Part shown: positions 33,064 to 52,274 of the stretch, one piece after another | How positions within the stretch are numbered: the first letter of the stretch is position 1 | Layout of the letters: the number at the start of each line of letters is the position of its first letter | NCBI RefSeq assembly: GCF_017312725.1 | Contig: NZ_BOPO01000088.1 | Span: 1 to 64,000 of the forward strand | Reading direction: 5' to 3' | Length of the DNA: 64,000 nt | DNA from: Actinocatenispora comari | Lineage (GTDB): Bacteria > Actinomycetota > Actinomycetes > Mycobacteriales > Micromonosporaceae | Made by a program: the position numbers and the translations under genes | The notes under the pieces: model-generated | What the model was told of the DNA's origin: nothing | What the model saw: only the letters and a program-made list of their open reading frames with translations | The model's database searches: none

Positions 33064-33089
33064 CCGGGATCGCACGGCCACGGAAGGAA

Positions 33090-33179
33090 GGTTCATGAGC
33101 GAGCGTGCGCGAGCGAGTCACGGGTGTCGCGTGACGTGGCGCCTGCTGGGCGTTCCGACGCGGGGGGACGGTTCATGAG
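33090..33179. repeat. 80-bp insertion flanked by GGTTCATGAG before hutI
   Basis: The 10-mer GGTTCATGAG occurs at 33090-33099 and again at 33170-33179, exactly 80 bp apart. The second copy contains the hutI start codon. The first follows a strong GGAAGGAAGG ribosome site at a distance that would suit hutI itself. The simplest reading is an insertion that duplicated the start-codon region. The inserted DNA opens with GAGCGAGCG steps, as at 52197. Confidence 0.65.
33095..33178 (+). CDS. 27-aa leader ORF (MSER) coupled to hutI
   Basis: An ATG at 33095 with GGAAGGAAGG upstream opens a 27-codon frame starting [10 protein letters not shown] and ending in TGA at 33176-33178, which overlaps the hutI ATG as ATGA. 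HutI has no good ribosome site of its own at 33175, so its translation probably depends on this leader. The peptide has one histidine only, which argues against a classical his-type attenuator. A second ORF of the same type lies before htrA. Confidence 0.5.
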
Positions 33180-34356
33180 TTCGCTGCTGGTGGACCGGAT
33201 CGGCGAGCTGGTCACGAACGAGCCCGGTGGCCGGGATCGGCTGGCGATCCGGCGCGATGCCGCGGTGGTCGCGGTGGACGGGCAGATCGCCTGGATCGGC
33301 CCGACCGGCGGCGCACCGGCGTGCGACGTGCGGGTCGACGCGTCGAACCGCGCCGTGATCCCCGGTTTCGTGGACAGCCACACCCACCTGGTGTTCGCCG
33401 GTGACCGGTCCGGTGAGTTCGCCGCCCGGATGGCCGGTGAGCGCTACACCGGCGGCGGGATCCGGCGCACCGTGGCCGCGACCAACGCGGCGGCGGACAC
33501 CGAGCTGTCGGCGAACCTCGCCTACCTGCAACGGGAGCTGACCCGGCAGGGTACGACGACGTTCGAGACGAAGTCCGGGTACGGGCTGGGCGTGGACGCC
33601 GAGGCGCGGCTGCTGCGCATCGCGCGCCGCGTCACGCCGGAGACCACGTTCCTCGGCGCGCACGTGGTACCGGAAGAGTACGCGGACCGCCCGGACGACT
33701 ACGTGGCGCTGGTGTGCGGTCCGATGCTCGACGCCTGCGCGCCGCACGCCCGCTGGGTGGACGCGTTCTGCGAGCGCGGCGCGTTCGACGCCGACCAGTC
33801 CCGCGCGGTGCTGACCGCGGGCATCGCGAAGGGGCTTTCCCCGCGGCTGCACGCGAACCAGCTCGGCGAGGGCCCCGGCGTACGGCTCGGGGTCGAGCTC
33901 GGCGCCGCCGCGGTGGACCACTGCACCCACCTGTCCGACGCGGACGTCGACGCGCTGGCGGGCGGCGGCACGGTGGCCACGCTGCTGCCCGGCGTCGAGT
34001 TCTCCACCCGCTCGCCGTACCCGCCGGCCCGCCGGTTGCTGGACGCCGGCGTCACCGTGGCGCTCGCCACCGACTGCAACCCGGGGTCGTCGTTCACCTC
34101 GTCGATGCCGTTCTGCCTCGCGCTGGCGGTACGGGAGATGCACCTGACGCCCGCGGAGGCGCTGTGGTGCGCGACCGCGGGCGGTGCCGCGGCGCTGCGC
34201 CGTACCGACGTCGGCACGATCACCACCGGCGCGTCGGCCGACCTGGTCGTGCTCGATGCGCCCAGCCATGTCCACCTGGCCTACCGGCCGGGAGTCCCGC
34301 TCGTCCACACCGTCGTGGCGAACGGGGAAATCGCTTACCAGCAAGGGAACTCGTGA
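33175..34356 (+). CDS. hutI: Imidazolonepropionase HutI
   Basis: HutI opens the imidazolone ring to give formiminoglutamate. The 393-residue protein carries [16 protein letters not shown] (metal-binding HTH near residue 70), [28 protein letters not shown] and [16 protein letters not shown], all family motifs. The ATG at 33175 is the start that gives the expected N-terminus; it is reached through the MSER leader. Its stop overlaps hutH as TGATG. Confidence 0.97.
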
Positions 34357-50100: not shown

Positions 50101-50153
50101 CTTCGCTGCCGCGAGGGTCGCGGTGTTACTTTGCTGCCGCGAGGGTCGCGGTG
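50101..50153. repeat. 28-bp tandem duplication of the htrA gene end
   Basis: Two 25-bp copies (50101-50125 and 50129-50153) share CTGCCGCGAGGGTCGCGGTG with one C/T change. The right copy codes the last htrA residues; the left lies beyond the stop. Confidence 0.85.
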
Positions 50154-52129
50154 GCGGTGTGCGTCTTACCGTCCCGGGTGTAGGTGACCTTCACCTTGTC
50201 GCCGGGCTGGTGCTGGGCCACCACCGAGACCAGCGTGTCGGAGTCCGGCACCTTGGTGTCGTCGACCTTGGTGATCACGTCACCCTTCTTCAGCCCCGCC
50301 TTGTCCGCCGGACCGCCCTTGGTGACCGCCGCGACCAGTGCACCGCTCCCGTTGCCGTTCGAGTCGCTGGCCGTCGCCACCGACACCCCGAACAGCGGGT
50401 GCTGCACCTTCTCACCCTTGATCAGCTTGTCCGCGGTGGCCTTCGCGACGTTGATCGGGATCGCGAAGCCGATCCCGATGCTGCCGCCCTGGCCGCTGCC
50501 CGAGCTGTCCGACGAGCGGATCGCGCTGTTGATCCCGATGACCTGACCGGACATGTTCAGCAGCGGGCCGCCGGAGTTGCCGGGGTTGATCGCCGCATCG
50601 GTCTGGATCGCGTTCGGGATGGTGATCGTGCTGCTGCCCTGCTGCTGTTGCTGCTGCTGCTTCCGCGGGTCCAGGAACGGGTTCTGCTGCTGCGGCTGCT
50701 GCTGCTCGGTGGACACCGTGTAGCTGCGGTTGAGCGCCGACACGATGCCCTGCGTGACCGTGCCCTCCAGGCCGAGCGGGCTGCCGATGGCCACCACGCC
50801 GTCGCCCGGCGCCAGCTTGTCGCTGTTGCCGATGGTCGCCGGCTTCAGATCCGACTTGCCCTGCGCCTGCACCACCGCGAGGTCACCGGACGGGTCCCGC
50901 CCGACGATCTTCGCCGGCGCCGTGGTCCCGTCGTCGAAGGTGACCTGGATCGACCCGTTCCCGCCCGCGGCCGCCTCGACCACGTGGTTGTTGGTCACGA
51001 TCATGCCGTTGGTCGAGATGATGACGCCGGAACCCTCGTCACCCGACTGGCCGGCCTGCACCTTCAGCGACACCACGCTCGGCCGGACCTGCTTGACCAT
51101 GTCGGCGAGCGAGCCGCCCTTGGTCGAGACCGGGCTCGACACGACCGTCGACTCCATCGGCGTGTTCCCGTCCAGCGCGTGCACGGTGACCCCACCGACC
51201 ACCCCGCCGGCGAGCACCAGGATGACCGCGGCGGCACCGCCGGCGAGCCACCGGCGCGCCTTGCTCGGCGGCTTCGGCCCGTACGGCCCGGGCTGCTGCC
51301 AGCCGGGCATGCCGTACCCGGCCTGGCCGTACGCCGGGATCTGTTGGGTGGCACCGAACTGACCGGTCGCGTCGGCCGGCCCACCGACCGGCTGCCCCGG
51401 GATCGGCTGGCCCGGCGCCGGTTGACCCGGCACCGGCTGGCCCGGGGCGGGCTGGCCGGGCATGGGCTGGCCGGCGACCGGCTGGTACGGGTCGGGCTGC
51501 TGACCGTACGGCGCCGCGGCGGGCTGCTGCGGCGCGCCAGGCTGTGGCGGCGCGGCAGGCTGTGGCGGCGCGGCAGGCTGTTGCGGCGCGGCAGGCTGTT
51601 GCGGCGCGGCCGGCTGGCCGTACGTGTCGGTGGCGTAGCCGGACGGCGCCGCGAGCTGGCCGGTCTGGTCGGTCGGCGTACCCGCGGCCGCCGGTCGGTC
51701 GGCGGCGGCCCATCCGGCTGGCGCGGCGTCGCCGGGCGGCACGGGAGAACCCGCGGCAGGCTGCTGCGGGGTGACAGCCTCTGGTCGACCAGGCGCGCCC
51801 GCGGCCCACTGCTGCTCGGCGCCCGGCGCGTTGGCGGGCGCCGCGTCGGAGGTGCTCGGTGCGGTCGCGCCGGCCGCCGGGACCACCTGCGTCACGTCCT
51901 CGCCCGGCGGCGTGTCCACCGGCTCCGCCGACGCGGCGGGCTCGGGCTGCGCGGCGGGGGCGTCGTCGGCACCGGCAGCGGGCGGCGGCACGGTCGAGCC
52001 GGGTGCTGCCTGATCGGCACCGGGCCGGTCGGCGGCGGACGGGCCGGCCTCGGCCGGCGTGGTCGGCTGGTCTGACCCGACGGCGGGCCGCTCGTCGGCG
52101 TGGCCGGGCTCCCGGTCCTGAGAACTCAT
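50126..52129 (-). CDS. HtrA/DegP-type membrane serine protease with PDZ domain
   Basis: The 667-residue protein has a long cytosolic N-terminus (about 285 residues) of low-complexity P, A, Q and G, including QQPAAP and GQP-type repeats. One membrane helix follows (about 292-318), then a trypsin-like domain with His near 381 (TNNHVVE), Asp near 414 (GDLAVV) and Ser near 517 (GNSGGPLL). A PDZ domain ends the chain. A glutamine-rich insert (QQQQPQQQ and a run of seven Q) lies between Asp and Ser. It is a quality-control protease of the cell surface. Translation is probably coupled to a short MSER leader (52197). Confidence 0.95.
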   Translation of the reverse strand: MSSQDREPGHADERPAVGSDQPTTPAEAGPSAADRPGADQAAPGSTVPPPAAGADDAPAAQPEPAASAEPVDTPPGEDVTQVVPAAGATAPSTSDAAPANAPGAEQQWAAGAPGRPEAVTPQQPAAGSPVPPGDAAPAGWAAADRPAAAGTPTDQTGQLAAPSGYATDTYGQPAAPQQPAAPQQPAAPPQPAAPPQPGAPQQPAAAPYGQQPDPYQPVAGQPMPGQPAPGQPVPGQPAPGQPIPGQPVGGPADATGQFGATQQIPAYGQAGYGMPGWQQPGPYGPKPPSKARRWLAGGAAAVILVLAGGVVGGVTVHALDGNTPMESTVVSSPVSTKGGSLADMVKQVRPSVVSLKVQAGQSGDEGSGVIISTNGMIVTNNHVVEAAAGGNGSIQVTFDDGTTAPAKIVGRDPSGDLAVVQAQGKSDLKPATIGNSDKLAPGDGVVAIGSPLGLEGTVTQGIVSALNRSYTVSTEQQQPQQQNPFLDPRKQQQQQQQGSSTITIPNAIQTDAAINPGNSGGPLLNMSGQVIGINSAIRSSDSSGSGQGGSIGIGFAIPINVAKATADKLIKGEKVQHPLFGVSVATASDSNGNGSGALVAAVTKGGPADKAGLKKGDVITKVDDTKVPDSDTLVSVVAQHQPGDKVKVTYTRDGKTHTATATLAAAK

Positions 52130-52197
52130 GGCCGGCCTCCGCTTCGCCGCATCCGGCCAGCGCCGTGCCGCTGGGTCGCTCGCTGTCGCTCGCTCAT
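52126..52197 (-). CDS. 23-aa leader ORF (MSER) coupled to htrA
   Basis: An ATG at 52197 opens a 23-codon frame starting MSERQRATQR and ending in TGA at 52128-52126, which overlaps the htrA ATG as ATGA. The first bases (ATGAGCGAGCG, then AGCGAGCGA) match the leader before hutI. CCATGAG occurs at both the leader and the htrA start, 68 bp apart. HtrA also has its own GCGGAGG site, so the leader is not required. No clear ribosome site is seen before the leader. Confidence 0.45.
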   Translation of the reverse strand: MSERQRATQRHGAGRMRRSGGRP

Positions 52198-52274
52198 GGG
52201 GTCAGATTTGCTCGATACCCTGCGGTCGGCCTGGGGTCTCCCTGAGAATCCCCTGGGAGCGTGAATCCCGTCTG

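Follow-up and report, generated by a model that had tools for sequence, protein, structure and literature searches.

A dispersed and apparently mobile mini-element of the Actinomycetota, ∼80 bp in length, quite probably inserts at the RTGA of start codons and turns each invaded gene start into a two-cistron start. Two copies of it lie in the window (i.e., the whole 64-kb stretch of DNA that was analyzed), one before htrA and one before hutI. The copy number, sense-strand position, frame rule, covarying hairpin, empty sites, and tandem differences that point to this reading were taken directly from the sequences of this genome (G000) and its relatives.

The coordinates of the window copies and their coupled genes are collected in Table 1. 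The first-pass annotation had described a 23-aa ORF upstream of htrA that ends in an ATGA overlap with the gene, and we found exactly this arrangement, with the leader TGA (52128-52126) overlapping the htrA ATG (52129-52127); the hutI leader likewise ends in an ATGA overlap with the hutI ATG, and the gene name hutI fits the family match of the encoded protein. The reported near identity of the two leader starts was also correct, as ATGAGCGAGCG occurs exactly twice in the window (0.08 expected; two occurrences in 0 of 100 shuffles), and the two-part core TGAGCGAGCGNNAGCGAGCGA located the same two sites when up to three mismatches were allowed (0.12 expected). The htrA leader ORF opens with ATGAGCGAGCGACAGCGAGCGA, and the hutI leader start differs at one fixed core position. 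A CCATGAG repeat had been assigned to both starts; it is indeed present at both ends of the htrA unit, whereas the repeat at hutI is GGTTCATGAG. The htrA copy, matched by covariance model R1 at 52128-52197 (30.8 bits, E 1.3e-4), is a degenerate relative of the class that carries GAGCGAAGCGGAGG near its 3' end, and it occupies the same site in the sister genomes G002 and G003 and thus in all three species. Both window copies look decayed because they scored 30.8 (htrA) and 73.6 bits (hutI) compared to 108.6 bits for the best match, and their predicted folds were no better than those of shuffled sequences (z of -0.37 for hutI and 0.12 for htrA). The inverted repeat at the htrA start reads as a degenerate form of the start-codon hairpin of the family; the evidence for a hairpin in this copy comes from the family, since its own fold is no stronger than shuffles.

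Table 1. Positions of the two element copies in the window and of the features associated with them
Feature	Position	Strand	Evidence
Element copy before htrA, 68 bp	52130..52197	-	Alignment row; R1 match
htrA leader ORF, MSERQRATQRHGAGRMRRSGGRP plus stop, TGA over htrA ATG	52126..52197	-	Read from sequence
SD-like GGAGG, from element, putatively for htrA	52136..52140	-	Sequence; role inferred from position
Inverted repeat TGGCCGG ... CCGGCCA, takes in A of htrA ATG	52129..52159	-	Read from sequence
htrA-type protein, coupled gene	50126..52129	-	Trypsin_2 8e-33, PDZ_2 5.7e-21
Element copy before hutI, 80 bp	33095..33174	+	R1 73.6 bits, E 6.2e-16
hutI leader, overlaps hutI ATG	33095..33178	+	Read from sequence
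hutI, imidazolonepropionase-type amidohydrolase, coupled gene	33175..34356	+	Amidohydro_1 2.4e-21

The surroundings of the two copies were also inspected. No clear SD precedes the htrA leader in the interval 52198-52225 (AGCAAATCTGACCCCATGAG), which is nearly identical in G002 and G003, and this leader might begin a leaderless transcript. The interval before the hutI unit (33075-33094, GGAAGGAAGGTTC) looks like the 3' terminus of a further unit (cf. L104) and was probably left behind by a tandem copy that has since been lost. For hutI, one match apiece was obtained in 36 of 41 genomes. The sister genomes G002 and G003 lack the element before hutI, although their intergenic sequence is not cleanly alignable there and the exact join not readable.

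When the complete genome (7.96 Mb, 151 contigs) was scanned, exact two-part cores outnumbered the reversed control (21 versus 2 for AGCGAGCGNNAGCGAGCGA), and the exact head pattern was found 18 times versus 0. The longer core with up to three mismatches gave 67 places versus 46 in the reversed control, and the 10-mer TGAGCGAGCG by itself was not enriched (68 versus 65 places), which led us to reject this single 10-mer as the element. The latter two comparisons are what one would anticipate if MSER-like starts in SD-rich, GC-rich DNA had yielded look-alikes at two genes by chance, but the probability of that explanation is practically nil: it is already refuted by the two-part core counts, by the 44 units that can be aligned, and by the exact-head counts, the control for which also remained at 0 in 396 genomes. 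Covariance model R1, built from 35 units, detected 71 copies in the genome at E≤0.01 with stricter filters and 98 at E≤1 with permissive filters, many of those in the tail being degenerate. The view that the two leaders are copies of one dispersed short element was thereby borne out.

The 44 aligned units, all of one family, were obtained from 55 pattern places. Five were left out at the start (L078 plus strand, L102 minus strand, and L091 minus strand as chance matches inside genes, along with two overlapping places at a contig end, L090), followed by six more (L092 and L101, without an RTGAG end; L105 and L081:4022, of odd length; and two that were duplicates or contained N). Most typical is ATGAGCGAGCGTCAGCGAGCGAATCATGGGCATCGCGCG..TCGTGCCTCATCGGCGTTCCGACGAAGGAGGAACGCCG, directly succeeded by the ATGAG of the gene; a unit begins with ATGAGCGAGCG, ends with its own SD and RTGAG, and has a leader TGA overlapping the gene start, with a length of mostly 74, 77, 80, or 83 bp. 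Conservation drops outside the unit, leaving a weak SD-like signal upstream and little past the sixth downstream base; the right end was located via RTGAG in this alignment, so the RTGAG frequency there is no evidence. A known RNA family was set aside, as Rfam returned 0 matches at the gathering score for nine element-bearing loci (78,609 bases), and so was a carrier plasmid or phage, as blastn of one consensus-like 83-bp copy returned no match from either of two collections, in which records of nearby genomes may be absent. A literature search with little subscription coverage found no paper on the element.

Many copies, nearly all in sense orientation and coupled to a gene, were anticipated for such an element by the first-pass annotation, and the 158 copies that we inspected conform to this, the coupling being predicted from their position. 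They come from three genomes of the genus (70, 38, and 50 per genome, with only part of the G002 and G003 copies included; 168 profile matches before the removal of duplicates and of those near a locus edge). With a codon-usage gene caller that rewards an SD, 112 copies were at most 10 nt from a called start, and another 34, mostly inner units of tandem arrays, were no more than 200 nt away. The other 12 had no gene assignment (array units, contig ends, and uncalled genes), and none of the 158 was called antisense or inside a gene. RTGAG was present at all 112 called starts next to units compared to 34 of 347 control starts, a result that is partly built in because the profile contains this motif. 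The upstream gene ends exactly at the RTGA of the leader in 51 of the 158 copies; for G000 this was true of 26 of the 59 copies that have an upstream gene close by, versus 50 of 211 control gene pairs, a modest excess. An SD-like tetramer precedes the leader start in 42 of 57 copies (36 of 51 first or single units) versus 16 of 228 control windows. Units adjoin gatA-, gatB-, adk-, and carA-type genes on their upstream side, so expression presumably survives insertion; the invaded gene is probably still translatable. Copy number in tandem arrays differs between species (a comparison of species, not strains), with seven units at L175 versus one at L228, two at L170 versus one at L088, and three at L191 versus one at L086. 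On the minus strand of L069 (G000 C8, ∼73,900-74,430), three or more arrayed units surround an N run in the assembly, and this site has one unit in G003 and none in G002.

The unit length is 2 mod 3, as had been proposed for the distance to the start codon, in 54 of 67 matches from this genome and in 95 of 112 matches from nine other genera, both obtained with a model lacking any frame rule. This is the length that the leader TGA needs to overlap the gene start. The 67 matches (units of 58-80 bp, mostly 74, 77, or 80) are the 68 with E up to 1.1e-6 minus C42, which is cut by a contig end, and the htrA copy falls outside them because of that limit; the matches from other genera have E up to 8.6e-4. 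Those with a length of 2 mod 3 are spread over the classes 65, 68, 71, 74, 77, 80, and 83. The rule is broken in 13 of the 67 and 17 of the 112 matches (e.g., L087, L104, and L080:9628), including L080, one of the five empty-site cases described below.

The amino acid sequence of the leader is a different matter. The conserved block translates as SERIMG, (A)NHG, or ESW in different genera, and copies of the underlying DNA block GCGAGCGAA.. occur in each of the three reading frames (7, 17, and 4 in other genera, counted for units that passed the ORF filter, 67 of 87 candidates), with the ORF end kept at RTGA. Of the other 20 candidates, 15 failed this filter and the remainder were duplicates; among those that failed are fusions of the head to a gene (seven Nocardia genomes, L261, and L281) and units that are cut by contig ends or enter the next unit. 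Within G000 the block is in one frame in 38 of 40 copies. Given these different frames, it is the coupling and the ending that are conserved and not the peptide. This result bears on the rival reading of the ORF as a regulatory leader acting by attenuation or ribosome stalling, in which the peptide would sense an amino acid, an antibiotic, or stress and control the downstream gene. Such a leader would be consistent with a short upstream ORF directly before genes and with a hairpin able to hide the start, but the peptide is not conserved, the downstream genes seem functionally unrelated, and tandem copy number differs between species; we consider it very unlikely, and peptide-specific regulation was set aside on the basis of the three reading frames.

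In the seven Nocardia genomes (L307, L308, L310, L333, L336, L339, and L343), the head is fused in frame to what is apparently one orthologous gene, providing an N-terminal extension (MSERSERIMDTA...) next to ATGAGCACATCGGCC; the element apparently was absorbed here as a protein N-terminus. At L261:1580 and L281:1580, the downstream genes themselves start with a truncated head (MSERSERPD... and MSERQRVNRSCG...), and these annotated N-termini may be element-derived.

The start codon of the gene participates in a predicted hairpin. In class-1 units, CTCAT and the following 9 nt pair with 9 nt and ATGAG to form a 14-bp stem. Among 35 copies of this class, 91.0% of the cells are paired and 40 cells show double changes compared to 12.9 in shuffled alignments (0 of 500 reached this number), with 7 of the 14 pairs changing on both sides (reached by 4 of 500 shuffles). 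Across genera (27 copies), the stem sequences are different, and yet 86.8% of the cells are paired, with 49 double-change cells versus 14.9 (0 of 500) and double changes at 9 of the 14 pairs. The start codon is located wholly within the 3' arm in 83 of 108 copies (32 of 44, 28 of 29, and 23 of 35 in three sets). We propose that the old SD of the gene would drive translation of the leader (21-28 codons in most copies), beginning at the old start position, while the SD of the element (GAAGGAGG or GAGCGNAGCGGAGG) and the RTG, situated in the hairpin loop and 3' arm, would serve as the new start. The leader-translating ribosome would melt the hairpin, terminate at the TGA, and re-initiate at the overlapping start codon. 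The peptide itself would be irrelevant, and an open frame ending at RTGA would be what counts.

Sister genomes, mostly 86-96% identical in DNA where element loci align, provided five clean empty sites at which ∼72-80 bp are inserted exactly at the start codon. At the gatA/gatB junction, an 80-bp unit in G000 corresponds to empty sites in G002 (GCATGACC) and G003 (GCGTGAGT); the leader start keeps the gatA stop, and the leader stop keeps the gatB start. The other four pairs are L198 (filled, G003) versus L208 (empty, ATGACA, G002), L080 (filled, G000) versus L210 (empty, ATGACC, G002), L070 and L169 (filled, G000 and G002) versus L241 (empty, ATGACC, G003), and L076 (filled, G000) versus L249 (empty, GTGAGC, G002). 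At every clean site, the unit replaces the plain start codon of the sister, with ATGAG on the left and RTGAG on the right. We did not count as clean hutI (intergenic sequence not alignable), gatC/gatA (relic of an element on the left side), L091/L244 (a relic in part), or L087/L239 (degenerate copy). Insertion at ATGAG start codons had been suggested from the two window copies; the position exactly at start codons stood, but the target looks like RTGA because the six empty alleles comprise four ATGAC and two GTGAG, and the G of ATGAG seems to belong mainly to the element.

The idea of flanking duplications was supported for the first one or two bases only. The base before the left ATG agrees with that before the right ATG at 78% of 37 sites in G000 versus 46% expected (p 0.0003), with similar agreement in G002 (p 0.008) and G003 (p <0.0003), the sites being partly common to the species; for the second base, agreement was seen in G000 and G003, not in G002. 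Positions -3 to -6 do not agree beyond chance, and a longer flanking duplication was rejected on that ground. Possible readings of the one- or two-base agreement are a longer target duplication, conversion, or target choice.

Whether such sites arise by transposition is a separate issue. Most of the data would also fit a spread through recombination or gene conversion among short repeats, or selection of a coupling cassette after rare copying; selection explains the sense-only and start-only placement more easily than DNA target choice does, element-like bases seem to be present just outside the RTGA core at both joins, and no mobilizing enzyme or larger parent element was found, the transposase search having covered Y1_Tnp. 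We regard such non-transposing spread as possible, if somewhat doubtful, given the filled and empty sister sites together with the loss of similarity outside the unit, which indicate the exact gain or loss of one unit. As for the enzyme, the short repeat and the hairpin adjoining one end are reminiscent of a REP/REPIN-type element moved by a hairpin-reading Y1 (RAYT/TnpA-REP) transposase, and G000 and G002 each have one Y1_Tnp match. No Y1_Tnp (PF01797) match at E≤1e-5 was obtained, in contrast, for G003, G001, G009, G024, and G026, which contain 72, 25, 22, 18, and 28 element copies, respectively; with several element-rich genomes lacking a match, the Y1 transposase was rejected as the mover, and an element of this type appears extremely unlikely.

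A mini-element transposing into start codons, our preferred reading, can be elaborated into an actinobacterial class that would lack its own mobility gene, would use its hairpin as a target guide by base pairing, and would include as a mycobacterial branch the MIRUs, i.e., the mycobacterial interspersed repetitive units reportedly described by Supply et al. in 1997. In this elaboration, which we think unlikely as a whole, the 5' arm (CTCAT and the next base) would complement both the 3' end of the element and the target start codon together with its preceding base, and the sequence of the element would thereby set the choice of target. Of 23 scorable single sites in G000, 19 have a base before the target ATG that agrees with the arm (Fisher p 0.006), and the 78% agreement given above for G000 is agreement of this base with the 3' end of the element. 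The arm test was not significant for G002 (12 sites, p 1.0) or G003 (11 sites, p 0.06).

The distribution of the element was assessed with R1 at E≤0.01 and with the exact head. R1 identified 25, 67, and 72 copies in three other same-genus genomes. In the family, represented by one genome for each of 33 other genera, 20 genomes gave weaker matches, with as many as 28 copies, and in the order 6 of 24 genomes gave one weak match apiece. The exact head was found in 47 stretches of named genomes, some MAGs among them, from Catellatospora, Planosporangium, Rugosimonospora, Virgisporangium, Micromonospora, and Actinocatenispora rupis, as well as Nocardia, Nocardioides, Aeromicrobium, Kitasatospora, Streptomyces, Pseudonocardia, and Mycolicibacterium; the A. 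rupis copy is of the ANHGHR type, as in this genome. When 396 genomes were sampled evenly across the phylum, just 3 had the exact head, our own genome included; the element is patchy.

Several consequences follow from an element of this kind. It would represent a set of natural bicistronic cassettes before core genes such as gatA, gatB, adk, and carA, and many predicted MSERSER small ORFs or N-termini may be inserted element rather than real proteins. The frame rule, the covarying start-codon hairpin, and the empty sites make its working directly testable, and its placement draws attention to the way in which a short DNA segment could reach start codons in a single orientation.

Parts of this design are familiar. 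Synthetic bicistronic cassettes and natural termination-reinitiation pairs have a second SD inside a short leader and a stop-start overlap, and in bicistronic designs the translating ribosome clears RNA structure at the second start. The layout is common to those systems and the element; what sets the element apart is that it is dispersed and apparently mobile, with copies at dozens of unrelated genes. REP/REPIN and Rickettsia palindromic elements are also short, dispersed, and equipped with hairpins, and the Rickettsia elements tolerate insertion in coding sequence by keeping the frame; the element described here differs by residing at start codons in one orientation and by supplying a complete, predicted coupled start.

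The closest likeness is to MIRUs. According to a 2025 review (PMC12548453), MIRUs appear mobile, go in at start codons, and carry a gene-coupled ORF with a -4 nt spacing, and a short ribosome-delivering ORF has been exploited in biotechnology. Other papers give a size of 40-100 bp and place MIRUs at 41 locations of the M. tuberculosis H37Rv genome, with a copy number that is polymorphic between isolates at 12 of these (PMC2734929), and mention a stem-loop family of M. tuberculosis that contains MIRU repeats (PMC2267715). Going by these accounts, the element resembles MIRUs in its tens of dispersed copies, its units within 40-100 bp, its sense position at gene starts, its unit ORF with a 4-nt (RTGA) overlap and predicted coupling, and its tandem arrays of variable copy number, here between species; it also inserts at start codons, including start/stop overlaps (gatA/gatB). 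Model R2 yielded weak matches in 7 of 98 genomes of a genus taken, by inference, to be Mycobacterium. The element is of the same kind as MIRUs by its predicted working; sequence kinship is unproven. Its covarying 14-bp start-codon hairpin, its conserved GAGCGAGCGNAGCGAGCGAATCATGG head, and its occurrence in several actinobacterial families may set it apart from MIRUs. The findings suggest that the mycobacterial MIRU is one case of an Actinomycetota-wide kind of element.
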